Assembly: GCA_037043015.1 (NCBI GenBank)
Contig: CM073322.1
Coordinates: 12,721,601-12,785,600 of the forward strand
Direction: 5' to 3'
DNA from: Bryum argenteum
Taxonomy: Eukaryota; Streptophyta; Bryopsida; Bryales; Bryaceae
Length of the DNA: 64,000 bases
Within the stretch, counting starts at the first letter, position 1. Every line of letters starts with the position of its first letter. A program made the position numbers and the translations under genes. The notes beneath the pieces are model-generated. The model did not search any database, had not been told where the DNA came from, and saw nothing but the letters and a program-made list of their open reading frames with translations. Shown here in pieces: positions 1 to 50,957 of this stretch.

Positions 1-814
1 TACGATGGGTAATGATTGGTCCAGCTATCGATCCACGGCCTCTGCCATGCATTGGCGATGCTCTGTCCTGTGATGTCGAGGCCCTGCCACGCGATGGTCG
101 TCGAACAGAACCTGAAGCTATGTTGCCTTCGTCATGTCGTGGCCGCTTAGATGGACGACCAATTGTTGATGTACGAACATTCGATGCTCGCAATGTAGTG
201 GATGGCCGCCAATCCAATTGTGTCGGCCTTGCTAACGCACGATAAATAGGTTCGGTCTCCTCTGGATCAGCCGGTAAACTTGCATGTTCAACTCTTGCAT
301 GTTCTGGCTCCGACCGCTGTAATGCCTCATACGAGATATGAGCACGCATAAATCTTCTAGCTCGTACCACATCCTCTTCAGATAACGCTAAACATGCCGA
401 CACATGCTCATGTCTAGCAGTACGCACCGCAAGATCTGTGTTGAGCCAAAACGTCTGCAACGAGGTTATGTTATTCAATCGCCCTGGATTTTGAAGAAGA
501 TCTGTAGGAATAGGTGCGAGAAGCAACTTTTTTGAAAGGGAAGTCTTTGTCGGCCTCTGACCAACCCCCGGTACGCAAATTGCATAGATCATATCGCCTG
601 GTCGGAGATTAATTGCCCGAAGTTCGGCGAAGGGCTTCCCCAATGCCGATGTGCGCTTCCCGATTTGAAATGGATGTTCTGTGAGCCATAATATTGGCCT
701 TGATTCCGCGTCCACTGCGATCCACCATCCGTACTGCTCCCAGACCTTGTCGATTGGAAGCGTTGGTGCCATGATGTCTCCAACAAGAAACCTGACTTGA
801 ATCACACAATACAT
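1..814 (-). CDS. Unrecognised protein, partial (runs off the left edge)
   Basis: An uninterrupted minus-strand frame runs from an ATG at 814-812 (first ATG after an in-frame stop) to the window edge, about 271 codons with no stop; a second ATG lies at 772-770. The first half is globular, with motifs such as WEQYGWWIAVDAESRP and LRPGDMIYAICVPGVGQRP. From about residue 180 it turns low-complexity and basic, rich in Arg, Ser, Thr and Pro (RPSKRPRHDEGN, RRPSRGRAS). I do not recognise the family. The length of the open frame and the shift from folded to disordered composition argue for real coding sequence. Position in a repeat-rich block suggests a transposon-encoded or transposon-adjacent gene, but this is inference. 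The C-terminus is outside the window. Confidence 0.5.
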   Translation of the reverse strand, partial: MYCVIQVRFLVGDIMAPTLPIDKVWEQYGWWIAVDAESRPILWLTEHPFQIGKRTSALGKPFAELRAINLRPGDMIYAICVPGVGQRPTKTSLSKKLLLAPIPTDLLQNPGRLNNITSLQTFWLNTDLAVRTARHEHVSACLALSEEDVVRARRFMRAHISYEALQRSEPEHARVEHASLPADPEETEPIYRALARPTQLDWRPSTTLRASNVRTSTIGRPSKRPRHDEGNIASGSVRRPSRGRASTSQDRASPMHGRGRGSIAGPIITHR

Positions 815-3261
815 ATAGAATTGTAAATACGAGTATTAAAAAAAAAACCTCTAGCTCTTTTGTGCTTTCTTAAAATTCATATCGTAAAATGTTCTTTGTA
901 TAAAATATCTATGCCGGTTGAAATGTCGGGTTTCATAAAATTATGAACATCATATCAGAGTTGATAACATGGTCACCAATGTTTTGCAAAATGTTAATGG
1001 TTACTAGAAGACAATTTATACGATCACTTATTTTATCCTAAACCATATAAAATTTTATTCAAATTCAGAAAACATTGAATATTCTACGACTAATACCTTT
1101 CATTTTAGAGTAATTTCAATATATAAACTTTATCACGCTCAAATACGATGCCATACATGGCACTTTTTTAGCTACTTTGAAGCATGTACTAGGAGATGCA
1201 ATATTGTAATAAATCATAAGTATTACTTGTCATTACATTGGGCTTATAACAAATACGAATTCTTGTAACTATCATACATCTTGTCAAGATATGGTATCTT
1301 ACATGATGTCTTCGATAAGTAAGTGCTTGGGAAGAAAGCCTAACCGTTAAGTAAGCAAGCTTGATGTGGTTCAAAATTCTTATGAGAGCAATATCCATCC
1401 TACCGAAATAAAGCAAAAAGTATCAATTTTATCAATGTGAATTAGATTATTGGAAACTCATAAAATATTTAGGGAATCTGAAAAATACTATTTTATAGAG
1501 CCTTCAAATGATCATGTTTAAATTCTAATACATTATGAAATGAAGGATAAATTGACACTCAAATACTTCCTCAAAAATCAATATCACACACAAATGTGAA
1601 TGTTAAATTTAGGAGTTTATAATAGTATTTATAAAGCCATGCCTTGACAAGATAATCATCATATAAAAAAATTGAAACTCCACCACCCCCTCCGTTGAAC
1701 TCTTCTATAGAGACAAACTACGAACCCTAAAAAACTAGGTGTAAAAGTATCTGCAAAGAAGCTATAGATGCTACTCGGTATGATACAGATATCAAGACAT
1801 AGTAGTGCTAACCTCAACAAGGTAGAGGGTGGAGTAATATAGAGCATGGTTTAATTTTTCAGGATTGAAGTGATTGTTGCCCATTCTTGCTTTGTTTAAC
1901 CCCTAAATTTCCTTGTTGCAAAACGGTGTAAGTCACAAAATTTGACCTTCCTTTAGATTAAGCTCAAAAAATCTCAATCTAAGCAATATTCAAAAATTCA
2001 ACCGTAAGATCTCAAATTTCACTTGACATTCTTCTCACATACCAAATTTGAACCGTTCATTCTTCCTCATTTGTGAGATTATAATGATCAAAGTTGGCTG
2101 ATTTTTCTCCTGCGGAAACCTCCAAAACCCGTTTCGGGTTTTAAGAAAAGTTAGGGTTAAGAAATCTTGCAAGCCTTGGAAAAATTTTCCCTCATTATTA
2201 AAGTCGCCATATTTGAGAGATTCCTCCCGGATAGCTTCAACCATGAGAATCAGGGCATCAAGCGGGACAGTGCTACAAACTGCACTTAAACTTATCAACT
2301 TATTATGGTTAACTTATAATGGTCTGCTCTTATTGCTACTTACGTGCAAAGTCTCACATTTCTCTTACGTAGGAATTGACCGAGGAGTGGAACACAAACT
2401 TACTAGTCTTTTTGCAGCTAGTTGGGATGCAGCTTGCAACTCATGAGTGAAATGCCCCAAACACAAGTAATTGAGCTTGCGCAATGCTGCTAGAAGAAAA
2501 CAAGTCACCGCAACAAGAGTATGAGAAAGAAGACTATATTTGAAAACTCACCATAATTGGTTCTCTACATTAATTTTTAAGAGTGATTTGAGAAAAAGGA
2601 AGACACGGAAGGACCACTATAACGCCTACTCATTATCAACTCATAAACATATGTAGGCCACGACGATAATTAAAATGATACCACACCATTGTGTTTTTGA
2701 AAAATGGGGTTCGATCTTTGAAGACTAAAGCTCTATTGAAAGCTACTGAAATTGGAATGTTCTGTTTCGTCCCGTGCACAAGAGCATCCTGCAATAATTT
2801 ATCTCCGACTATATCTCTCTTCGACTATTTACTGAAATACTTTATTCATGCCGCAAGTGCATGCAATCTTGAAATTTTCTCGATCAATCGATCAACTAAA
2901 TCACAAACAAAGAACGTAATGGCAAGATTATAACTCCGTTATCCAATAACCTGAACTTCCTTGTGACCTAAAGCATGAATCAAGAAACATCGGGTTACTT
3001 GATTTGTCTAGAAGATATAATGAGATAAACATTACAAGATATTTTCTTTAGAAAAAGAGATATTGAAATTTCATCACATCATCAAAAGTTTCGTCGAAAT
3101 ATGGCCACCAACGCCACGCATGAAATAATACAGAGATTTTGACATTTTGTATTTCGATATCATGCACCCACAGCGTACTTTGCTAACTTGTTCAATTCAA
3201 GGCTCGTAATTCGTCGTTCGGACATCTTGTAACTATCTTTTCTTTTTCTTCTTTCTTTCTA

Positions 3262-3300
<39 letters not shown>
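815..3300. other. AT-rich spacer, no gene seen
   Basis: Strongly AT-rich sequence with short spurious reading frames only. A homopolymer T run of about 32 bases (about 3266-3297) abuts the TIR element that starts at 3301. No RNA gene or recognisable transposon protein was found. Confidence 0.5.
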
Positions 3301-4145
3301 CGGCGCTGCCTTGGGGGGGGTGCGTGCGCACGGGGTGTAAGGAGGGAGGCGGAGGGAAAGATTAGGGGAAGAGGGGATGTGATTAGGGTTTAGAAAGAAA
3401 GGCAACTCACGTGCGGATCTCAGTGCGGGGCCGCGCCGAGGGACGCGCCGAGGACTCGATCGGCACTCGTATCGGCACTCGTATCCGAACTTGTAGTGGA
3501 ACATTGAGTAACTCCCGGCGGGACAAAGCTCGCATCCCCGCGATACGAAAATCTCGGACGAAAGATCACAATATTGTCTTTGAGACTCCCGATTCGAACG
3601 CTAGAGTGTGTGAGGGTCAATCCCCAATTGTTGTCGGAGCCATTGTTCTCTTTCCTCGGGCGTTTCTGAGCTCGGCAATGTATGCGGCTTGTTCGCGCAG
3701 CCCTTTGAGCTCGCTCCTCAATGACTTTGGGGCTCGACGCTTTTTGTAGGCCGCTTCTTCAGGTGCGACCTATGTGCTCGATCCTCGGGCGACTCTGCGG
3801 CTCTCACTTTGGCTACGTATTCCCCTTCTTTGTTGCGGCCGTTGCGCCTTGGCCTCCGGAGTTTCGAGTTTTCGTGACCGAGCACGATTGGCTGATTCTT
3901 CCTACCGTCGTTGTGATGACTCCTGTGCTGACTCTGCTGCACGTACGCCGGCTCTGAAGTCACCGAGACTTTGAAACCTTGTGAATGTCTACGTTCCAAA
4001 GCTGCAAAACAAGTATCTCTGCAACGTTACGACTGGGGACTCATGGCTGGACACTGAGTGACACTGAGCGACTCGTGGCGGGACACTGAGGAACGCGCTG
4101 CAGATCTCGTACCCCGTGCGTACGCACCCCCCCCAGGCAGCGCCG
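3301..4145. mobile_element. TIR DNA element, about 845 bp, GC-rich ends
   Basis: The two ends are inverted copies of about 35 bases: the left arm (3301-3336) begins CGGCGCTGCCTTGGGGGGGG and the right arm (4111-4145) is its reverse complement with few mismatches. Both arms include a G8 tract and GTGCGT-CGCACGGGGT. Subterminal tandem motifs are visible: CGGCACTCGTAT twice near 3459-3484 and GACACTGAG-like units at 4049-4090. The interior is much more GC-rich than its flanks. On the minus strand a helical, charged frame (about 3760-3640, containing KSLRSELKGLREQAAYIAEL) looks like a coding remnant but is broken by stops and frame changes. No clear target-site duplication is visible; the left flank is poly-T. 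Superfamily not assigned. Confidence 0.6.
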
Positions 4146-6697
4146 CTCAAGAAATGCCGAGTCTTCAGGGAAGAGGCACACATTGATTGAAAAGGTGCTA
4201 ATCTCCTGTAACCCGAACGAACGTGCACAAGAACGAAGTTTGTGTACTGACCACCGAGCTACAAGTCAGGAATGGTTTTAGGCATGGTTGTGAGCATCAA
4301 GCTACAAGTCAACACCTAGAAAAAGGACTCTAATCTTTGATTATCTTCACTTCGTCCGACTCACTTAAGCAATACTAGAATCAAGAACACGCAGCTGATA
4401 TTCTGCCTCTGTTGTTAATTCTGATAATTCTCTATTACTCTTACAAAAAAAATTGTATAGCCTTGTCAGTTAAGGTCAGATAGAAAAAATAGTAATGGCT
4501 AGGAATACACATATATGGCAGGTAGTAACTTGGGAAAATAGTCGGACTGAAACTCCGATGTCTGTCGCATGAACGTCCTAGTTGATATGGATGCCGCTAC
4601 AAAGAGCACAATAAAAACCTTAAGAAGTATACTCCAGAACTACAAAGCTTTAAAATACTATTTGGAATTTGCCCAAAACTGCCCATACTATGGTTTATGC
4701 TGTTTATCTACCCAAAATATATAAGATCGCAGGAACTTCAAAATTCACCAAACTACGGAAATTTAACTTTTTTCCAAGTTTTGTTTTTGGTACTTGGACA
4801 TAAGGTTTTAAGGCATGATCTCACCGTTTTGGATCTTTCATCCAATTATTATTCACATGCCATTTTTATCATAAAAGAAGGGCCTTTGAAGTTGAATTAC
4901 TTATGTTTGACCAAGGTCTTAGGCTTGTACTAGGCCAACCATGATAAAATTTGAATTGCCTGCATGAAGTTAAGGGAAGCAATATAGTTAGCAACACAGA
5001 AGTGAACATTCCAACATTTGATCCTAAACAACGTAAACTCTACATGGTGAATGTACCCATAAAAACGATGTAAGACCATCACTAGCACGAACAGATTAAG
5101 CTCAATCATGGCCACTTAGAACCACTTGCGGCTCAATATCGGTGTTACTAAAAGAAAAACAAAAATGTCTCGTGAATGTATCAAATCGCCAATTGAAATT
5201 AAGAGTAAAGGAAAGTAGAACGTAATCAAATTAGCATACTTTAAGTGGTGAAAACATCGGTTAAAAACTTGGTGTTGTTGATGGTCACAAATGCTTGTCG
5301 ATTGTGAAACCACCATATCCAAAGATGTGTTGTCTCGGAGACAGCAATTGAATGTCATTCAAAGTACGCTAGACTCTCACAAGTTTTGTCTTTAAAGTGT
5401 TCATAGTCGTGTCAACAAGTCACATGTTACATTAGCCTCGATAGTTAACGAGCATGTTGTTCGGAGCTTTTATCTCTTTTTCCCCCAATTTCCTAGATTT
5501 TAGGTTGTTTTCATCATGTGTTACATATTGACACCAATGTGTTTCTTATGATTGTATAGATTTTGAAAGAAAGAGAAGACCAAATATTTTGGCAACGAAG
5601 ATTGATTGGTGATATTGTCATACTACACAGTGTTGAATCCCGATACCACGCCTCTAGATACTTATACTTGAAATTGAGGTCAGAATTACCTTCTACTCCC
5701 AATCTAATGGCTTTTAGGACGTATCTTATTTACCGTGGATTTCATCGAATCGCTTAAAATTATAATTTTCTTCAATGAGCTCTAATTGACAATCTTTAAA
5801 ATAATTAATCTTCATACTTGGAAGTGTAAGTATATATCTATCATTGGATAGTTTATTGGATTAATGATGCTTTTAAATTCAAAAACTATAAATAGTTGAA
5901 GTATGATGAACAATACCAGACCAAGTGAATCCGGTATTTCCCGTATGAGGACGTGGCTTTAAGTAAACCAAATAGGGTTATAGGAGGATGGTAGCCGCTT
6001 ACAAATGAAACATAGAGATCTTAATGTTTTGTGGTTTTGGTTTTTTCTATTCCAAAATGTAATACAAACTTCCTTTTTTTCCATTTAGATTTTCTTTGTA
6101 GAACATATTAGATTCACAAAAAAATAAAACATGATTTGACAACGTTTAAACCTAAAATGTTTAAACCTCCAAAGTTTGCACAAATTTTTCAATATGCTAA
6201 AAAAAACACATAATTATAGTATATTTTTTTACTACAAGATGTGGTGTCGAACTTCCATTTGGTCGTTTAGGGGTTTGGGAGAACCAATAGTATAGGTTTT
6301 GACATATAATTATAAAACCTTTGTACGAAATTCAACATCCGGTAGTGGGATAGACGTGATTTTGTTATACTCTAATAGTACGTAGAAATAAGTACATTCA
6401 TATGTTTCTAATGTCCATACATTGTGACAATTATATAAATCTAATGGATCTTCAAATTAAATTTTCTATCTTAGAAGTTCAAATAAAAAATAAATCACTA
6501 GTGCTCACTACACGTGACCAGGTAACATAAAATCTAATATATGTACAATAAAACTCGAATTGTAGCAGAAGGTGAACACTTGGTAGTTTGTCCAAAATGA
6601 AGCTTGTTACATAATTTATATACTACCACGTTGACCGATTCTTACCCTTTTATTACTATTTTCTGAATATCAGGTTGATAGTCAAGCGATAGCAACT
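4146..6697. other. AT-rich spacer, no gene seen
   Basis: No supported gene. The last few hundred bases are the 5' flank of the transposon coding region below. I looked for a terminal inverted repeat partner to the sequence beyond 9895 and found no convincing one. Confidence 0.4.
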
Positions 6698-6997
6698 ATG
6701 ATGGAAAACAATACAATAGAAACTCATGTCCCAATCGGAGACATCCCAAGAGGTGATATCTTGTTCAATAGTTCAATAGGTTCACGATTCTCGCGGGCGG
6801 CTCGAGCGAGACAACTACATGATGGATTAGATGAGATATGTATATCTCAACAAAATAGTAGGGTCGAATTGCTTTCTAGTACGGGAGCGGTGGTGGGCAT
6901 GGCGCTAATGGACAATGCATTCAAAAGTGGCATGGAATTGAACGGAATGAGATTGTTTCCTCTCGAGGTGGCGATGACGTGTCACTCAAGTAGATGA
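6698..6997 (+). CDS. Transposon ORF, N-terminal piece (99 aa)
   Basis: A 99-codon frame just upstream of the two larger transposon frames. It has no recognised domain. The next frame (from 6978) overlaps it by 20 bases and has no ATG until 7143, so this piece probably supplied the N-terminus of the same protein before a frameshift. The interval is too short for a normal intron. Alternatively it is a small separate ORF. Confidence 0.35.
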   Translation: MMENNTIETHVPIGDIPRGDILFNSSIGSRFSRAARARQLHDGLDEICISQQNSRVELLSSTGAVVGMALMDNAFKSGMELNGMRLFPLEVAMTCHSSR

Positions 6998-7898
6998 TGA
7001 ATTACACTGGACAGAGAGAGATGTAGTTGGAGAACGATTAGGATTGTCTAGGGGACTAACGATTCGTTGGGACCGCTCTTTGGTACGTGTAGTGGCTTTG
7101 GATTCCAATATTCTACACGCACGAGGTGAAGAGGGATCTCAAATGCCGCATGTACCGATGATGACTCCGATATTTGATTTCCATGAGGAGTTTCACACAC
7201 CAAGCTCCAATGAGACATCACGAAGAAGTAGTCAAGCTTCAAATCCCGTACATGAAAATTCACCATTTTCCCAGCCTCCTTCTAACAACATCCGAGATCT
7301 ACCACATGTAGATGGGCTGGCATTTGTAAGACAAACGCGCCGACGTTATTCTATGCAGAATCGGACAAGGCGAGTCGCAAGGGAAAGAAGACCGGCCGAT
7401 GGTGCAAAAGCAAAAGTTACATTGATAAGCGTGCAAGATGCAATAGCAAAAGGTGGATGCAAGAGAAATTGTCTAACAGATATTCCGGCAAGGTACATCT
7501 TGGACATGCGGTATAATGCATGGGGGTCTAAGTATTCAATCCGGAGTACATGGGTGAGGCAGATGTTGGTTTCATTCTATACACAAACCGATGGAAATCG
7601 TAGAGATAAGTTTGTGACAAAGTTGGACGGCAAAGAGGTTTGCAATGCATGCTACGCTGTAGCGGTCGGATATTCACAACGGCGTTTCAAGGACTTGAAA
7701 AAAGATTGTTTGATATATGGTAGGGTGACAGCTGTTCACGGAAATACCCTTTCAGATCCAGTTAGAGAGAGTACTAGAATGTCTGCCGCCGAGGCATGCT
7801 TTAAGTGCTTCGTGGATGAAGCCGGTTGTCCTCAACCCCACCGATCCATTCGACGCAAGAGTGACAACGAAGTCGTGCGCTTATTCTTCTCCCCATGA
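6978..7898 (+). CDS. Transposon ORF, middle piece with Cys/His-rich region
   Basis: Open from 6978 to a TGA at 7896-7898; the first ATG is at 7143, so the start is uncertain. The N-terminal part is Ser/Asn-rich and disordered. A basic segment (RRRYSMQNRTRRVARERR) resembles a nuclear localisation signal. The distal half has spaced cysteines (KGGCKRNCL, KEVCNACYAV, EACFKCFVDEAGC) that could bind zinc. Its stop overlaps the ATG of the next frame as ATGA. In related proteins known to me these regions and the catalytic domain lie in one polypeptide, so this piece and the next are probably one gene split by a one-base shift, or coupled by reinitiation or a -1 slip at the C4 run. Confidence 0.6.
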   Translation, partial: RVTQVDDELHWTERDVVGERLGLSRGLTIRWDRSLVRVVALDSNILHARGEEGSQMPHVPMMTPIFDFHEEFHTPSSNETSRRSSQASNPVHENSPFSQPPSNNIRDLPHVDGLAFVRQTRRRYSMQNRTRRVARERRPADGAKAKVTLISVQDAIAKGGCKRNCLTDIPARYILDMRYNAWGSKYSIRSTWVRQMLVSFYTQTDGNRRDKFVTKLDGKEVCNACYAVAVGYSQRRFKDLKKDCLIYGRVTAVHGNTLSDPVRESTRMSAAEACFKCFVDEAGCPQPHRSIRRKSDNEVVRLFFSP

Positions 7899-9898
7899 AC
7901 ACAAAAAAAATCGATGTATTCAATTACGTGAACGAGGAGGTGAAGAGAATTTGCAATGGCGAAACCATATCCATGAGCTCATTTCGGAGGATGTGGCGCC
8001 TAAGGTATCCTCATGTTCAAGTACCCCCATTCTCTAGGTTCTCAAAATGTTATCATTGTTGGGAGTACAAATGTGCCATGGAAGGGACAACCAATGCGGA
8101 TGCCAAGATAAGGATTAAAGAGGTGTTCATGTTACATTTGCTCAATCAAATGGAGGAACGTAGACATTATTGGATATTCAAGAGGTCTTGTTATATCAAC
8201 CCTGAAATGTACATGTGTATCATAGTAGATGGCATGGATCAGAATACAACCATGGTACCCCGAATACGTCAGACCGTGAAGAATATCGAGAACCGGTTCG
8301 TGAAGACCCATCTATGCGGGGCGTTGGTGCATGGGATTGGATTGTACTGTGATGTGTGGTTCGGAGCTCACCACAAGCATGATAGCAACCAAGTCGTGAG
8401 CACATTATTACATGTGATAGGGGACGTATTACGGAGGAAGGGATTCTTGCCACCAACATTACGCATTCAAGCGGACAACTGCACACGCGAGAAAAAAAAT
8501 ATTTATATGTTCGCAATGTGTGCAACTTTGGTTGGATTGGGATTTTTTCAGGAAGTGGAACTATCCTTCCTCATCGTGGGTCATACGCACGAAGATATCG
8601 ATCAACGGTTTAGTTGTATCTCAAACACCTTGAAGAGGTCAGACGTGAACTCTTTAAAGGAAATGTTTACTCTCATTGAACGAGGAACGTCCCCCACCGA
8701 GGCATTTGTAAGCGTACGACTATTAGAGAATGTATGGGATTGGAAGAAGTTCGTAACTCCGCACCTATTGACGGGATCGGATTCATTGATTGGCATTACA
8801 TTTCCACACCACATGAGATTCTATTCTAGCAATCGCGAGGGTGCTTGTAAGGTCAGGGTCCAACATAAGCACTATTGCAAGGATGCTTGGGGACCGGAGA
8901 GAGGGGATCAAACTTTGAGATCCATCTCAAATAGGGTCGAACGACCGGATTTTGCGACTGTATATGCAGCGGATGAGCGGGAGCTCAAGGCGTTAGACGA
9001 TTTTATTGCGTACAAGGATAGGTGTATTCAAAGATTGCAACACGTGGAAGTCAACCGTGATGCAAAACATGAGGCACAGAGGTTGAAACAATATTTAGCA
9101 GAGTTTCCAAGAAAGGACCGCAACGCCGATCACGAGTCATCACCGTTTTGGCCATCCTATGAGTCCAACGCCCAACCTTCAGGGTGCTTCTCTTCGATAC
9201 CGAGAGAGAATACTATTGCTGAAACTCGCGAGATAACCGTTGTTGATCAGATTGTGGGCATGCTCCCGAGTGCAGAGGCTCGTGGATACTTTGGACCACG
9301 AAGGGAGAGACCATCAAATCAAGGAGTGCATACTGCACGACGAACTAGTCGACATTGCGTCTACGAAGAAATCTCAGTACGAGACCAAGAAGGAGGTAGC
9401 AACGATCCGTTTCCAACATTTAATCCCGAAACGGACATTAATACTGATCAATTTGTTGCACTGAGTGTTGTTCGAGATGAGGTAGAAGCAGGCATACCCT
9501 TTTACCTAGGAAAGGTGATTGAAGAGGGGAAAAACTCATGGAGGTTAAAGATTAAAGTATGTTGGTATTGCCCCATTATGAGAGAAGGGGTCGTTGAAGA
9601 AACGGGGTCCAACAGACAACGCTATGTAAATTGCATGGAGTCGTTGTGGGAGCCATCTGGTGAGAGGCACAGTTGGGTACCGAAGGAGGCGTGTATCTTT
9701 TCATGGTTTGACAAACAACCTGTATCGGAGAATGTCGTTCAACCGTCGGAGAAGCGCATTGTACACGGAGTGCAGGTAGAGAAGAGAGTTCGTATTCCTC
9801 AATCCACAAAGGCACACATTCTGGAATATATAGCCATGCAAACGGAAGCTATTGACGACGAACGCTTACAGGCAGACTTAAATACCAAGGAGTAGGTT
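7895..9898 (+). CDS. Transposase-like protein, DUF7869-type, 666 aa
   Basis: An intact 666-codon frame. Residues 51-60 form a CxxC-type knuckle (KCYHCWEYKC). A probable RNase H-like catalytic core follows: VDGMDQNTT at 111-119 (D112/D115), IQADNCTREKKN at 191-202 (D194), and GHTHEDIDQRFS at 229-240 (E233, D234, D236). The D...DN...HTHEDID order matches proteins that databases label DUF7869, which are multicopy in many eukaryote genomes and thought to be transposon-derived (from memory, not checked). A linker at about 380-480 is disordered. A C-terminal beta-rich region (about 520-600, with YLGKVIEEGKNSWRLKIKVCWY) resembles small chromo/BAH-like modules. Cut-and-paste or related DNA transfer is inferred. 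The missing in-frame N-terminus suggests this copy is no longer autonomous, though the catalytic region is intact. Confidence 0.75.
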
Positions 9899-19329: not shown

Positions 19330-19850
19330 CTTAATTTTGTTAAAATAGCGGTATATTTTGTGTCATTTTGCCAAAGCCTTAACCCTTAAACGTCCAAGCA
19401 TGCCCCTCGGGCTTGGTTTCGAGTGTATTTTCAGAGGGGCTTGACATTTAAGGGTTAATGTGCCATTTTGGCCCCATTCTAAAACGTCTTATTTTGCACC
19501 CTTATATTTGAACTATCATCTTATATTTGATGGGTGCAAAGATAGATAGATGATAGATGATGATTATTTATGGTTTATGACCTTTGAACTTTGATATCGT
19601 GCACATCCTCTCTAATATTAACCAACTTTTATAATATCACACTTATTTATGGTTTATGACCTTTGAATGTGGTCGAAGGGTGATATTTCTCAACGGCCGT
19701 TTACAAACATTTCTGATTTTGGACGGTTGTTTAAAATGAGAAATGGTCGAAAGGTAAGTACTTTTGAATGGCCATTCAAAAACATTGATCTTTTTGAACC
19801 GGAGTTCAAAAAATTTGTCCTTTGATGTCAGAATTAACGAATCCAAGGTT
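19330..19850. mobile_element. TTAAAATGGCG-family MITE with a 72-bp TTAA insert
   Basis: Host repeat copy at 19330-19382 and 19455-about 19850, matching the 12873 copy. The unoccupied site is seen there near 12920-12932, where CGCCTT runs straight into GCTGTGCCAT. Confidence 0.65.
19383..19454. mobile_element. 72-bp TTAA mini-element (piggyBac-like ends)
   Basis: TTAA at 19379-19382 and 19455-19458 flanks a 72-bp unit that begins CCCTTAAACGTCCAAGC and ends GACATTTAAGGG. A GC-rich block of the GCCCCTCGGGC type lies near each end. A same-length relative is at 53531-53602. It is almost nothing but its two ends. Confidence 0.8.
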
Positions 19851-26057: not shown

Positions 26058-27396
26058 CCCCTATACGCCCGAGCCTATTTTTAGCAGAAAAGCACATTTC
26101 CATAGAAATCGTCATAGATGAAAATCAAGAGAAGCTATTAAGATCTCAACCGTACAAACTTGTAATAGACTTATTGAAGATCATGTGGACCAAAATTTGA
26201 GTCATGAGGCCTTATAGATCGGGAGATCGTAACATATTAATATCAAAAACAAACTGCAAAATTTCGTCATTTTCACTTTGAGGTGGAAATGCTACCAATA
26301 TACCTATTGCAATGAAAAAATCACCAACTAGAAAGATGTTCACCTTCATCTTAATAAGTCCTTTACCCAACAAAAATTCATCAAAAAAATTTCTTGGCTC
26401 AAATAAAAGCCATGCAATGGTAAAAACTACCGAACATTTTACAAAGGACAAATAGTACAAAACTAGACCCTTTGCATTCAATCTCATGCCTTATCTTCAA
26501 AACATCTTCGATCTTGTTACGGTTTCTACCACTTAGACTAGACTTTAATTGGAGGCCATCCCAAAAAATTAAGTTGAAATCCAATGGTGGATGAGGGAGA
26601 TATAGCTCCTCAAATATCATCCATTTTCTCACTTTTTCTGTTGACAAAACATCATTGCAAATCCAATAGCAAAATCATTTGGATCAAAAAACTTCTCACT
26701 ACAAAGTTGTTAACCCTTAAACGCCCAAGCAAGCCCGAGGGGCTTGATTCCAACAGAATCTTCCCTGTAGCTCTCACTGTACTCAACTTTTCACTTATAT
26801 TTTGATGTCAAACTGGTCACCATCTTATGATGCATTCAAAAAGTGAATTTTTACAATTCAAAACACAATTTGTATGAAGGATTTTGTGCTTTGAAACGAT
26901 TGTGGCAGGTAGGTTGGGGTGGTACATAACCTTGTAGGAGGTTGCAAGCTCATCATCGATTGGTCCATTCATGATGCCCAAGTTCAAAAAGTGCACTATT
27001 CATGATGCCCAAGTCCAAAAGATGCTGTGATCCAATTTTGGGCTGCCCGTTTTAGACCCCAAGGGCGTTTAAGGGTTAAGAATCACCTTAAGATCATGAC
27101 CATGAAAAAAAAAATCATGAAAAACTATTTTTAATTTCACATAATTGGCTTGCAATGGTAATACATGCCCCATGCTTGGAAACCCAAAAACAAGAGTTGT
27201 CTTCACTAAAGTGCATTCCACTAATTCATACTTTATTGTATGGGCTTGAAAAATTTACAACACAAACTAGACTTGATTTGAAACCTAATCCAAGTGATTT
27301 CATCCAAAACGAACCTTTAATGAAGAAGATATGGCTCTTGAAAGTTTTTGATGTACATCCAAAATGTCGTTTTTCGACATCGTGGGCGTTTAAGGG
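26058..27396 (-). mobile_element. About 1-kb TTAA-family element with a nested 362-bp copy
   Basis: TTAA at 26054-26057 and 27397-27400. Left end CCCCTATACGCCC (diverged); right end GGGCGTTTAAGGG. Without the nested insert the element is 973 bp, close to the copies at 39273-40256 (984 bp, opposite orientation) and 49637-50627 (991 bp, same orientation). On the minus strand at 26487-26212 it carries a 91-codon frame conserved in the 39-kb copy. No transposase domain recognised. Confidence 0.8.
26714..27075. mobile_element. 362-bp piggyBac-like MITE nested in the 1-kb element
   Basis: TTAA at 26710-26713 and 27076-27079; termini CCCTTAAACGCCC and GGGCGTTTAAGGG are perfect 13-bp inverted repeats. 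Next to the left end is the palindrome CAAGCCCGAGGGGCTTG (26730-26746). It is about 94% identical by eye to 32371-32742, which differs mainly by an extra 10-bp CCCAAGCAAG unit. Confidence 0.9.
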
Positions 27397-27400
27397 TTAA

Positions 27401-28305
27401 GGAAGTTTGATCACATATTAAGGAATATTGTACATTAGGAGTAAAGTCATACATGGGATCGCAAGCTTGCAAAATTCTACTTCCTAACTTTGTTTAATAA
27501 AATTAGACTTGATTTAGGTTCCAACCTAACAAATTTTGTAAAAAAAAACTAAACATAACAAAGTTGTGACTCTTCAAAGTGTTAGCTTATCATTCAAAAT
27601 ATTGAAATTTGAAATTCCAAGCACTTGGGAGTTGATGCTGTAACTTCATTACTAAAATCTAGTGTTTATGTTTAAAATATTATTAACACACTAGATTTCA
27701 AATTTTGTGTGTATACAATCTAAACCTCTTCCCATCATGCTAATTTTCTAATAACCAAAAGCAAGTTTTTATTTGTACCTATTTCAGTCACTATTTCAAG
27801 TGTATGGGAATGGATTTTGCTGATGCTTGTGAGCCCCCAACTACCACACCAAAGACCCTTGAGAGGTGCAATTGCAATGTGAGGTTCCCAAGGGGGAATA
27901 ATAAAAGAGATAAAAAGGGAAGAAAGCCTTTCAGAAGAGCATATTGGGAAGTTTTGGACGTGCATGAGAAGCGGATGTGGTCGAAGGTCGACGAACGACA
28001 ACGAATCTTCCACCACAGATTCGTCGTCAGGATGCGGCCAGATGCATCGCGACCGATGCATCCATAGCGGCCCATCGCCCTCTCCTTCCCGCTCGACGCG
28101 GAACCTTCACCTGCAAGGGGGTGCAGTGTGCCTCCTGCGTGCCCCAGTCGCCGCCTCACCCATTTCATCATCATCACCTGCTCAAAACCACCCCCCATCT
28201 CCCCACACTGCACTGTGTGGTGAGTGCGCAGCGGGATTCTCCCAACCCGGTCGCTTTTTGGAGCAGAGATTCAAGCTTGGTTGCGCCTCTAGATTCTGTG
28301 CAGAG
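27401..28305. other. Spacer and 5' region of the sulfite reductase gene
   Basis: AT-rich to about 27780, then GC-richer toward the sulfite reductase start, consistent with promoter and 5' UTR. Overlapping small frames on both strands at 27790-28300 carry no domain. Confidence 0.4.
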
Positions 28306-31203: not shown

Positions 31204-31436
31204 CCCTTAAAAGTCATATGCTTTCCTGATACCACACCCAAAATCTCTTTTAAACTCCATTTTTAGCATTATTATATTTTTAATTTGCTTGAGCTCTATT
31301 CTAAGAAAGTATAGATCTCTTTGAGGTGCTCAGTTTGGAACTCTAAAATTCCATTTGGTATAATGGAGTGTAAGTTATGAGCAAGATTCTCTCAAAAAAA
31401 AACCCAACCCCTCGGGCTGGGTCTGACGTTTAAGGG
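31204..31436. mobile_element. 233-bp TTAA-family MITE
   Basis: TTAA at 31200-31203 and 31437-31440; ends CCCTTAAAAG and GACGTTTAAGGG. A GC-rich CCCAACCCCTCGGGCTGGG hairpin precedes the right end, like the subterminal blocks of related copies. Confidence 0.8.
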
Positions 31437-32359: not shown

Positions 32360-32363
32360 TTAA

Positions 32364-33417
32364 CCCTTAACCCTTAAACGCCCAAGCAAGCCCAAGCAAG
32401 CCCGAGGGGCTTGATTCCAACAGAATCTTCTCTGTAGCTCTCACTATAATCGACTTTTCACTTATATTTTGATGTCAAACTGGTCACCGTCTTGTGATGC
32501 ATTCAAAAAATGAAATTTTACAATTCAAATCACAATTTGTATGTATGATTTTATGGTTTGAAAGGATTGTGGTAGGTAGGTTGGGGTTGTACATAACCTT
32601 GTAGGAGGTTGCAAGCTCATCATTGATTGGTTCATTCATAGTGCCCAAGTTCAAAAAGTGCACTATTCATGATGCCCAAGTCCAAAAGATGCTGTGATCC
32701 AATTTTGGGCTGCCCGTTTTAGACCCCATGGGCGTTTAAGGGTTAAACGCCTAAGCGTGCCCCTGGGGCACGTTCTGAAAGTTTGAGCAACTGTAGCTCC
32801 GGCTTCGTCGGAGGGAATCGCACGAGGCTTGAGGCTTGGGTCAAACTGGTCGGGCGAGGACCGTCTCCGACCTCCAACAATCCGTAAGAGCAATTCGGTT
32901 GTGGTTCAATTGCGATTTGCGTACCGCCGGTTGCGGGAGAAGAGAGAGTGCGTTTTGTTGCTGCCCGATGTTGGCAAGCTTCGGTGGAAGCTTGATTTCT
33001 TGGTTCAGTCTGTGCAAGCCGGGTCTCTTTTGAGAGATCATCTGTCAGAGCCGTTGTTGTATTTTTAGGTGTTCCGCTTCTTGTGACTTCCGTTGAACCG
33101 TTGGGCAACGGGCTGCAAAAACGGCATGATGGTACCTGAGTGGTTTTGACAACGACGGGAGAGTTGCGGAGAGGATTTTTGCAAAGAATTGCAACGTTGG
33201 CTTGTTCACGAGCAAAATCAACCACAATCAATAGTCGATGAGTGCTTACGATTCTTGGACGAAGACTATCTGCTTTCACTTCCGCTCCTACCTGGTGTTG
33301 TCTTGCCGCGAATTCGCGCAGTCTCTTGCACTGTTTGTTCTCCGTCTCCTACTGCCCATATTATTCTCACAAATATGCTTCAGGCTGCCCGGAAAATAGA
33401 CCATGGGCGTTTAAGGG
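32364..33417. mobile_element. TTAA-family element, split in its own left end by another copy
   Basis: Outer TTAA duplication at 32360-32363 and 33418-33421. The left end reads CCC (32364-32366), is interrupted by a 372-bp copy plus duplicated TTAA, then resumes with ACGCCTAAGCGTGCCCC at 32747. The right end is GGGCGTTTAAGGG. Restored length is 678 bp. The body is more GC-rich than its flanks; open frames on both strands (up to 178 codons on the minus strand) are unrecognised. Confidence 0.85.
32371..32742. mobile_element. 372-bp piggyBac-like MITE nested in another element's terminal repeat
   Basis: Perfect 13-bp ends CCCTTAAACGCCC / GGGCGTTTAAGGG, with TTAA at 32367-32370 and 32743-32746. 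These TTAAs are the internal TTAA of the outer element's CCCTTAAACGCC terminus. It is a near-duplicate of 26714-27075. Confidence 0.9.
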
Positions 33418-33679
33418 TTAAACAAATAGCAGGAGCGTGCGCAACTGGCACGAGATTGCATGTAGTTACAGTATGTACTAGGTATACATTGAAGTATACA
33501 AGAGACTGGGTGCAACTACATTCAACAAAAACAACATATATGAAAATGCCTGGAAGTGGGCCTGTCACTCTTCATATCAAATTCATACATGCATATGCTG
33601 TAGACTGGGGCATGACAGTCTAATCAGGAGTGGTTACTAATATTCTCAATGGGTCGTGATACGCCATAAATATTGTCAA

Positions 33680-34610
33680 CCCTTAACCGGTTCAAATGTC
33701 GAAAAACGACATTTTGGATGACTGCACCAACTTTGAAGAGCCGTGTTTTCTTCATTTGGAATCCGTTTTGGATGAAATTACTTGGGTTGGGTCATAAATT
33801 AAGACTAGTTTGTGTGGTCCAATTTTCAAACCCATACAATAAATCATGAGTAAATGACATACATTTTAGTGAAGGCAGCTCTTGTTTTTGAGTTTTCAAA
33901 CATTGGGCATGCTTTATCATTATGAGGCAATTATGGGAAATTGAGAAAATGTTTTCATGAAAGAAATTCATAGCCATGATGTTTAAATGAAGCCTAACAA
34001 CATTTTAGCTGGAAGATTTTTGATCCAAATATTTTTGGTATTGAATTTGCAAGGATGTTTTCTCTTGAAGAAAAGAGAATAAATGGATTATTTTTGAGGA
34101 GCTATATCTTCTTCATCCACAATTGGATTTTGACCTTATTTTCTAGGATGGATTCCAATTAGAGTCTTATTTTAGTATTAGAAACCCTGAGAGAATGGAA
34201 GATGTATTGGAGATAAGGCATAGATTTTAGTGCAAAAGGTTGAGTTTTGGACATAGTATTTGTTTGTAAATTTTTTGACAAGTTTTACCATCGCAAGGTC
34301 ATTATCTATGCAATGAAAGTTTTCTCATGGATTTTTCTTGTTCAAGGGTGGTTCAAAGATGAAGGTATACATCTTTGTAGTTGGTGATTTCTTGATTGCA
34401 ATAAGCATATTGATAGCATTTTCACTTCAAAGTGAAAATTTTGAGATTTTGTGATGTTATTTGAAAACTAATAAGGTATGGTATTGCAATCTATGAGACC
34501 TCATTAGTCAAAATTGGACCCACATGATGTAAAAGGCCTCTACCACAAGTATGTACCGGTATGCTTGAGATGTGGATAACTTACCTTTATTTTCATTTAC
34601 GACTGTTTTT
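33680..34610 (+). mobile_element. Eroded copy of the 1-kb TTAA family
   Basis: The left end CCCTTAACCGG follows TCAA (a decayed TTAA, 33676-33679). The sequence is colinear with 39273-40256 up to about 34610, where a T16 run replaces the right end. The internal frame conserved in other copies is here broken by stops. Confidence 0.65.
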
Positions 34611-39268: not shown

Positions 39269-39272
39269 TTAA

Positions 39273-40256
39273 CCCTTAAACACATGCTAAATGTAGAAAA
39301 ATCACATTTTGGATGGAAGCCAACAACTTTGAAGAGCCACAATTTCTTCATCCGATATTTGTTTCGGATGAAAATACTTGGTGTAGGCCCTAAATCAAGT
39401 CTAGTTTGTGTGGTAGAAATTTCAGAACCCAAAAATAAAGTATGACTACATTGCATGCATTTTAGTGAAGACAACTTTTGTTTTTGGGTTTCCAAGCATG
39501 GAGCATGTTCTACCATTGCAAGGCAATCATGTGAAACCAAAAATGAATTTTCATGATTTAGTTTTCATGATCATGATGTTAAGGTGGTATTGACAACATT
39601 CTAGTTGGAATTTTTTTGATCCTAATACTTTTTCTATTGGATTTGCAATGACGTTTTGTCAATGAAAAAAGTGAAGAATTGGATGATATTTGAGGAGCTA
39701 TATCTTCTCTATATTTGAGGAGCTATATCACTGTTGGATTTCAACTAAATATTTTGAGATGGCTTCCAATTAGAGTATGGTTTTAGTGGTAGAAATCTTG
39801 ACAAGATGGAAGATGCTCTAAAATAAGGCATGAATTTGAGTGCAAAGGGTATAGTTTTTAACAATTTTTCCTTTGTAAGATTTCTGGCAGTTTTCACCAT
39901 TGCGAGGCTAGTATTTGAGTCAAGAAATTCTTTTTATGATTTTATGGGCAAAGGTTCTATTGAGTTGAAGGTGAACAACTTCGTAGTTGGTGATTTTTTC
40001 ATTGCAATTGATTTGTTGGTAGAATTTCCACAACAAAGTGAAAATGATGAAAATTTGCAGTTTGTTTTTAGTACCAATGCATTACGATTTCCCAGTCCAT
40101 GAGGCTTTATGACTTAGTTTTTGGTCCACATGACTTACTACAATTCTATTACAAGTTTGTACGGTTGAGATTTTAATAGCTTATATTCATTTTCATCTAC
40201 AACATTTTTATTGAAAATATGTTTTTGGCTTAAAAATGATCTAGGACGTTTAAGGG
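39273..40256 (+). mobile_element. 984-bp TTAA-family element
   Basis: TTAA at 39269-39272 and 40257-40260; ends CCCTTAAACAC and GGACGTTTAAGGG. Opposite orientation to the 26-kb and 50-kb copies. At 39830-40102 it has a 90-codon frame (AKGIVFNNFSFVRFLAVFT..., later KVNNFVVGDFFIAI) that aligns throughout with the frame at 26487-26212. No known domain. Confidence 0.85.
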
Positions 40257-49573: not shown

Positions 49574-50957
49574 GTCTCCATGCTTGAACCGACCCGTCAT
49601 ATTGAAAGGTTCGTCCTGTAGCAAACCTTCATTTAACCCCTAAATGTTCCAGCCTATTTTTAGCCAAAAATCACATTTTCAAAAAAAGTGTCATAGATGA
49701 AAATGAATATAAGCTATTTAGATCTCAACCGTACAAACTTGTAATAGACTTGTTGTAGGTCATGTGGACCAAAACTTGAGTCATGAGACCTTATAGATTG
49801 CAAGACCATAACATATTAGTGCGCAAAACAAGCTACAAAATTTCATCATTTTCACTTTAGAGTGAAAAATCTACCAGCAAAGCGACTCCAATGAAAAAAT
49901 CTCCAACTAGAAAGTTGTTCATCTTCATTTCAATAGTACCCCTCTGTATAAAAAAAAAATAAAAAAATAAAAAAAATCATCAAAATAATTACTTGGCTCA
50001 AAAAATACCCTTGCAATGCTCAAAACTACCCAAAAATTTACGAAGGGAAGATAGTCCAAAACTAGTCCCTATGCACTCTAATCTACGCCTTATCTACGAA
50101 ACATCTTCGATTTGGTCAAGATTTGTACTACTGAGAGTAGACTCTAATTAGAATCCATCCAGAAAAATAAAGTTGAAATCTAACGGTGGATGAAAAAGAT
50201 ATAGTTGTTCAAAAATCATCTATTTTTTCACTTTTTTCATTGTAGAAACATCATTGAAAATGTAATACCAAAAGTATTTGGATCAAAAATCTTCCAAGTA
50301 GAAAATTGTTAGAATTCATCTAAAGACCATGTTCATGTAAAAAAATTTCATCAAAAACTATTTTTGGTTCACATAATTGGCTTGTAATGATAAAACATGC
50401 CTAATATCTGAAAACCCAAAACCAAAAGCTGCCTTCACTAAAATGCATGCCATTAATTCATAGTTGATTTTATGGCTGTGAAAGTTTTACCATGCACACT
50501 AGACTTGATTTGGAACCCAACCCAAGTGATTTCATCCAAAACGGAGTTTGGATGAAGGCGTTATGGCTCTTCAAAGTTTCTGCCCTCCATCCAAAATGTA
50601 GGAAACGACATTGGGGACGTTTAAGGGTTAAAATTAGGGAGGAGAAATGATGGGTTGTCCTCATGTGAGGACCGTGCCGTGATAATCCTTCATTCGATTT
50701 AGATAAATGACAGAAAACAATTATTGCAAGCTCCTCAAACAAAGAAATTCCAAAAAGCATCCTAAATTGAGAGAAGAATAATCCAAGATAAGAATGAGAG
50801 TCTCCCATATTATTGAGAGGGCTTGCCAAGCCTTCTTGGTAGACCCGTCATTTAAAAAAAAAAAAACCGCTTCTATTAATACAGGTCGGGTGTCTCCAAA
50901 TTACATGCAAGCCACCCTCACCTTCAAATAAATACGGGTCGGTTCAAGCATGGGGAC
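49574..50957. mobile_element. Inverted-repeat element interrupted by a TTAA element
   Basis: A perfect 20-bp inverted repeat, CCATGCTTGAACCGACCCGT, lies at 49578-49597 and 50934-50953. Subtracting the TTAA element between them leaves about 390 bp, a typical MITE size. Extra GACCCGTCAT / GGTCGGG motifs inside the right part suggest a rearranged or double copy. Confidence 0.55.
49637..50627 (-). mobile_element. 991-bp TTAA-family element
   Basis: TTAA at 49633-49636 and 50628-50631; ends CCCCTAAATG and GGACGTTTAAGGG. Colinear with the 26-kb copy. At the position where that copy holds the 362-bp insert, this one reads TTGTTAGAATTC (near 50310), a slightly mutated unoccupied site. Confidence 0.85.

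Follow-up and report, generated by a model that had tools for sequence, protein, structure and literature searches.

A piggyBac-type MITE inserted into the terminal-repeat TTAA of another piggyBac-type element

Introduction

Nested MITEs of grasses were reportedly used by Jiang and Wessler in 2001 to read insertion preference and to define element ends and targets; those elements are said to be of the Tourist and Stowaway types, with target sequences other than the one considered here. In the piggyBac superfamily, the Pokey and mPok elements of Daphnia take as their target the TTAA next to other copies (PMC3849761), and the coral (Acropora) CMITE elements form arrays for which the authors regard replication slippage as the likely cause (PMC2872659). 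In human cells, autointegration of piggyBac is directed at TTAA sites of the inserting element itself (PMC3952818).

Two reviews list piggyBac among the angiosperm MITE superfamilies (PMC10004981) and among the plant class II superfamilies (PMC10794571), and two surveys describe it as isolated from plants (PMC10813416, an animal survey) and as present in all taxonomic groups studied (PMC4438587). A table in a fern genome paper gives 1230 piggyBac copies, at 0.00% (PMC6890710). Among the titles listed in literature searches, none reports piggyBac elements in a bryophyte, and a moss genome paper (PMC10619864) has the word only as "piggybacking."

Here, we describe a locus within a 64,000-nucleotide stretch of DNA (the window, meaning the whole stretch that was analyzed) at which a single junction yields the target, the ends, and the target duplication of a piggyBac-type family and from which the order of events can be read.

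Results

Anatomy of the nested locus

A 372-bp element lies inside the TTAA of the left terminal repeat of an outer element, with exact junctions and exact TTAA duplications (Table 1). The first-pass annotation of the window had described the left side as TTAA-CCC-TTAA-inner-TTAA-outer, and the sequence between 32360 and 33421 follows that description base by base. The ends of the inner element are CCCTTAAACGCCCA and TGGGCGTTTAAGGG. To its right the outer remainder begins ACGCCTAAGCGTGCCCC; the outer body after the second inner-flanking TTAA starts ACGCCTAAGC and reaches 33417, where it ends in TGGGCGTTTAAGGG. The outer element spans 32364-33417, and taking out the inner copy and one TTAA, as that annotation had proposed, reproduces a 678-bp element starting CCCTTAAACGCC, with a normal terminus and TTAA on both sides. 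Its further claim, that the one junction gives the TTAA target, the exact ends, and the duplication of TTAA, is borne out by the window sequence, in which all three are exact.

The left nest junction (TTAACCCTTAACCCTTAAACG) occurs 136 times in the genome, compared with 0 for a reversed control pattern, and the right nest junction (CGTTTAAGGGTTAAACG) occurs 114 times, compared with 0 for the control pattern. Both are present at the window locus, on the same strand and 373 bases apart, and the arrangement is thus not a matter of chance. An Rfam search of the window gave 0 matches.

Table 1. Coordinates of the nested locus and of related elements in the window
Feature	Position	Strand	Basis
Outer target-site duplication TTAA, left	32360..32363	.	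Sequence
CCC, displaced terminal three bases of the outer left end	32364..32366	+	Sequence; in 12/13 other copies CCC lies directly on TTAA
Outer terminal-repeat TTAA, the target, duplicated (left copy)	32367..32370	.	Sequence
Inner non-autonomous piggyBac-type MITE, 372 bp here, family ~362 bp	32371..32742	+	Genome matches, exact ends 7/7
Private tandem duplication in the inner copy, 10-bp unit AAGCAAGCCC twice	32384..32403	+	Sequence; absent from 7 copies of 362 bp
Outer terminal-repeat TTAA, right copy of the duplication	32743..32746	.	Sequence
Remaining outer element, left ~570 bp and right ~100 bp of a larger piggyBac-type element, joined by internal deletion	32747..33417	+	Genome matches, L036
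Outer target-site duplication TTAA, right	33418..33421	.	Sequence
Second inner-family copy, 362 bp, inside another repeat, TTAA both sides	26714..27075	+	Empty site in L036, L080, L081
Related 233-bp MITE, ends CCCTTAAAAG / CGTTTAAGGG, TTAA both sides	31204..31436	+	Sequence
Related 72-bp MITE, TTAA both sides	19383..19454	+	Sequence
984-bp stretch, ends CCCTTAAACA / CGTTTAAGGG, TTAA both sides	39273..40256	+	Sequence

The inner MITE family

A first look for the inner sequence in the 258.8-Mb, 25-contig genome gave 3196 candidates, of which the 40 scored yielded 49 matches, mostly 97 to 98% identical. Seven other copies were fetched (loci L002 to L008), all of them 362 bp long, with the same end bases and TTAA on both sides, and 96.7 to 97.0% identical to the window copy; their 300-bp flanks are 42 to 49% identical to the window flanks, the level of unrelated sequence. 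The inner element is therefore a complete MITE, and the possibility raised in the first-pass annotation, that it is part of a longer conserved unit, falls away. The annotated length of 372 bp is exact for the window copy, although the family length is 362 bp and the extra is the private 10-bp tandem duplication. Its size (362/372 bp), its many near-identical copies, and its ends, which are common to piggyBac elements, are those of a MITE. No source transposase element was found for it among the fetched transposase elements, none of which matches the MITE body.

The second window copy of this family sits in a repeat that is contiguous without the MITE in L036, L080, and L081 at 95 to 96% identity, providing a within-genome empty site; L080 and L081 are near-identical neighbors 7 kb apart and are thus counted as one. 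Four related copies of another repeat are present in the window, the last three (33678-34107, 39269-39703, and 50199-50631) being 76 to 81% identical to the first (26600-27410), and the repeat corresponds to one end of the 984-bp type of element. The 72-bp element recurs in L076, L078, L082, and L088 and is very short for a mobile element. Two window proteins suggest a plant-like host, one matching a chloroplast sulfite reductase (5h8v; E = 2.1e-121) and the other an ethylene response sensor (4mt8; E = 5.2e-36).

The outer element

Beyond the inner copy the outer element continues for 671 bp. This body has 27 matches in the genome, and the only full-length one is itself; the other 26 comprise 13 to the left ~570 bp only, 7 to the right ~100 bp only, and 6 that are short and weak. 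Both halves are present in L036, which measures 3.85 kb between its terminal TTAAs and is 92.7% identical over the left 576 bp and 91% identical over the right 113 bp; the 3.16 kb that separates the halves there is missing from the outer element of the window. With a single joined match, and with L036 carrying both halves, the outer 678-bp element is therefore a larger piggyBac-type element that underwent an internal deletion once, and there is no 678-bp family. Nor is it a MITE family of its own, the two halves being joined at one place only. We looked for clear microhomology at the internal deletion and found none.

These comparisons qualify the description of the two as sister elements, which fits the shared end type but not the outer element, a single deletion derivative and no repeated family. 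The first-pass annotation had also suggested that a 678-bp element with an intact left end might be found elsewhere; none is present among the 27 genome matches, and the arrangement is seen at the window only. A different left end in other outer copies, named there as evidence that would speak against the reading, was not seen: all 13 other outer left ends are uninterrupted (12 CCCTTAA and 1 TCCTTAA), and 11 of them adjoin an exact TTAA. No copy with both outer ends and an open transposase gene was found among the fetched loci, and L036, the closest two-ended relative, has no stop-to-stop frame of ≥220 codons between its ends. The sequence shared by the inner and outer elements is limited to ~14 to 35 bp at the ends, and a single transposase for both is for that reason presumed only.

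Transposase genes between the same ends

Both window insertions and all seven of the other inner copies have TTAA target duplications, and the ends carry the terminal CC[C/T]T motif and short inverted repeats (CCCTTAAACGCC...GGCGTTTAAGGG). The CC[C/T]T terminal motif is given as a piggyBac criterion (PMC2872659), and CCCTT-type ends are described as in piggyBac (PMC2872659 and PMC10813416). The inner and outer elements of the window are themselves non-autonomous, and the transposase genes are found in larger elements with the same ends; elements at the loci with these ends range from 1.2 to 6.1 kb in size, or from 4.6 to 6.1 kb where a long transposase frame is present.

These larger elements code for a piggyBac transposase. 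PF13843 (DDE_Tnp_1_7) is present in L047, L039, L053, and L037 (E = 2.6e-78 to 2.6e-66), with the L037 match covering part of the profile. The 875-codon frame of L047 (L047:2927-5551, minus strand) matches DDE_Tnp_1_7 (E = 2e-76) and can be aligned to two solved structures, piggyBac transposase 6x67 (E = 6.6e-30) and piggyBat 9c0f (E = 4.2e-26). Its residues D551, D630, and D742 fall on D268, D346, and D447 of piggyBac, with positions counted by hand along the alignment, and these are the catalytic triad named in PMC7351741. Cysteines 844, 847, 855, and 858 lie in the C-terminal stretch and may belong to a cysteine-rich domain. Genome-wide, all 116 of the PF13843 places scored (of 775 candidates) are above the cutoff, compared with 0 of 14 control genomes, and by our own count 93 of the 116 have no stop within the matched stretch.

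A 666-codon open frame in the window (7895-9892, plus strand) matches DUF7869 (E = 8.5e-51) and was rejected as the source of the enzyme; there is no TTAACCC or GGGTTAA between 5000 and 12000, and the PF13843 genes explain the elements. A telomere-like origin of CCCTTAA was also set aside, the pattern being located at element ends with TTAA duplications.

A two-step insertion

Two successive piggyBac-type cut-and-paste insertions almost certainly account for the locus, at which the ends and TTAA duplications are exact and the order of nesting is legible, in a genome where both elements also exist uninterrupted and where transposase genes are bounded by these ends. In the first step, an internally deleted piggyBac-type element of 678 bp would have entered a TTAA. 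The outer terminal repeat begins CCCTTAAACG, which puts a TTAA three bases inside each end. Later, a MITE of the 362-bp family, presumably moved in trans by piggyBac transposase from larger same-end elements, would have inserted into this internal TTAA and duplicated it, with the outer CCC being shifted 376 bases from the remaining outer end. Presumably a same-end piggyBac transposase, rather than another TTAA-specific one, performed the insertion, and the split left end presumably no longer allows the outer element to be moved from that side. As a mechanism this is ordinary piggyBac-type transposition following known rules, and the locus is one of many in the genome.

Nest junctions across the genome

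The exact end sequence TTAACCCTTAAACG is found at 5945 places, counting the two strands together, compared with 4 for the control, which is enough for ~3000 elements if paired, and insertions sharing a flanking TTAA are present at 34 places. Among the junctions listed, pairing of left and right junctions on one strand gives at least 26 exact two-sided cases including the window, with an inner length of exactly 362 bp in 16 of the 26. The pairing covers 100 of the 136 left and 77 of the 114 right junctions (contig C1 to C7:6.48 Mb) and accepted inner lengths of 30 to 8000; one pair with a 5526-bp inner segment could be due to chance.

Unpaired among the junctions listed are 74 of the 100 left and 51 right junctions, and the first 20 of each kind were read against seven reference elements. 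Among the right-only junctions, 12 of the 20 adjoin a known element minus exactly three terminal bases (L075, L077, L080, L081, L084, L085, and L089 to L094), 6 have apparent chance TTAAACG flanks (L076, L078, L082, L083, L087, and L088), and the remaining 2 are a variant end (L079) and one assigned to no class (L086). The left-only junctions include 5 of 20 at a known element minus its terminal three bases (L058, L059, L065, L067, and L072, that of L059 being the second along), 10 of 20 with no recognized far-side element (L055, L056, L057, L060, L062, L066, L068, L070, L071, and L073), and 5 of 20 that are mixed or unassigned (L061, L063, L064, L069, and L074). The far sides of L057, L060, and L071 look element-like by eye, though without a match to the seven reference elements. 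An extra TTAACCC alone is therefore no proof of nesting and both sides are needed, as at the window locus, which has both and is left untouched by the unpaired left junctions.

We note that L056, L062, L066, L068, and L073 have an extra TTAACCC on one side and no recognized element on the other; slippage, decay of an outer element, or loss of a composite that left a footprint may be responsible.

Target preference

One explanation for this nesting, which we regard as unlikely, is tethered self-targeting, in which the terminal-repeat TTAA is preferred because the incoming element is captured by transposase already bound to sister ends. The strict two-sided cases scale to ~35 genome-wide (26 per 100 listed of the 136 left junctions), whereas 7 to 9 are expected if ~2970 elements hit 1.0 to 1.2 million TTAA sites uniformly; with 1.5 times as many elements the expectation is 16 to 20, and the 34 insertions sharing a flanking TTAA are similarly raised. 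An internal control using exact matches only gives 4 terminal versus 0 interior TTAA hits. With one mismatch allowed in control patterns of differing lengths, however, the terminal TTAA of the 233-bp MITE family is occupied in 7 cases and intact in 447, and the interior TTAA is occupied in 3 and intact in 350. The occupancies of 1.5% (7/454) and 0.85% (3/353) do not differ significantly, on few events (Fisher P = 0.53), two of the 7 terminal hits (CGTCATA and CGTCCGA) may be other ends, and a preference for terminal-repeat over interior TTAA is thus not supported in this family control.

The general excess of nest junctions can instead stem from elements sharing the same regions, which is enough to explain it. 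Contig C1 (44.1 of the 258.8 Mb) holds only 94 of the 5945 exact ends, ~1/10 of the genome-wide density, and the element distribution is therefore far from uniform. Our guess is that C1 may be a distinct compartment, for example a sex chromosome or heterochromatic. A table of target contexts from 60 ends, with C before TTAA at 37% of the ends versus 21% of all TTAA contexts, was dropped because nested and adjacent copies weigh heavily in this sample.

Arrays and composites

In each of the three arrays that we dissected, every displaced CCC or GGG matches one element lacking the triplet, showing growth by insertion. L002 reads TTAA-CCC-TTAA, element A (95%), TTAA, element B (83%), TTAA, and element C without CCC (85%), with one displaced CCC and one element lacking it. 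L006 is the mirror case, in which GGG is displaced to the right and one element is without GGG (86%), beside inserted copies at 84%, 95%, and 94%, and in L059 CCC is displaced twice and missing from two elements. The percentages are identities to one reference copy, and both L002 and L006 contain an inserted copy that has diverged slightly more than the element that must have received it; identity does not order the events, and the order is thus taken from the junctions alone.

Three TTAACCC in a row occur at six ends genome-wide, L059 among them and two on C9. Among the right junctions listed, the triple at C6:14197857 is followed by two downstream, as expected; among the junctions listed, the triple at C5:2001029 has only one exact right junction nearby, and that at C7:5297705 has none. 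We tentatively suggest, as a possibility, that elements build arrays by repeated insertion into each other's ends, because the terminal repeat contains a target site of its own, CCC-TTAA-ACG. Each round would displace one TTAACCC outward and leave one element three bases shorter, heptamer counts would record the rounds, and the arrays could seed satellite-like repeats.

Growth of arrays through composites, in which the left end of a nested inner element and the right end of the outer one would work together as a single larger transposon and spread, seems to us doubtful. In L079, L085, and L091 the inner element is followed by an outer end that lacks its CCC (in L079 the end is a variant), and there is no displaced CCC on the other side, which is consistent with re-inserted composites, but loss of one TTAACCC heptamer produces the same picture, and the far ends of these candidates lie outside the fetched stretches.

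Slippage duplication of the end heptamer, with an extra TTAACCC and no nesting, is extremely improbable as an account of the window locus. Slippage could occur at TTAA-CCC-TTAA, a direct repeat, and half of the 20 left-only junctions that were read are without a recognized far-side element. At the window, however, the far side is the continuing outer end (ACGCCTAAGCGTGCCCC...), which in all 13 other copies directly adjoins that copy's own terminus, and slippage is unable to place a 372-bp element there. The heptamer-only explanation is thus rejected for the window locus, though it may hold for part of the unpaired junctions. Kolobok elements, of another TTAA-specific superfamily, likewise make TTAA duplications, but they are most unlikely to have moved the inner and outer elements, whose ends are CCCTT-type as in piggyBac and whose kind of ends flank PF13843 genes.

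Discussion

The value of the nested locus lies in its clean anatomy and in the array bookkeeping, which rest on a target site built into the terminal repeat. The more notable result is a side one: piggyBac genes are abundant in this plant-like host, with 116 places scored among 775 candidates and many open frames. The 5945 exact element ends and these many transposase genes are present in a single plant-like genome, and piggyBac in plants is already in print generally.

Three described piggyBac systems come close to the locus. Pokey and mPok resemble the elements described here in comprising piggyBac-type elements and derived MITEs, and flank-sharing pairs in their style are present here too, at 34 places. 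They share a flanking TTAA, however, whereas at the window locus the TTAA is within the terminal repeat, the outer end is split, and the CCC is displaced. piggyBac autointegration is likewise an insertion into TTAA, at sites of the element's own sequence, with single-ended events as well (PMC3952818), in contrast to the window in that one molecule inserts into itself in engineered plasmids, whereas here the insertion is genomic and of one element into another. The coral CMITEs have the same TTAA target, CC[C/T]T ends, and tandem arrays, and CMITE-IN is similarly a new element from a MITE inserted into the TTAA of another sequence (PMC2872659). Slippage was proposed for those coral piggyBac MITE arrays, whereas in three arrays here insertion is evident from the displaced CCC triplets and from the elements left without one, and the bookkeeping explains these three by successive insertion.
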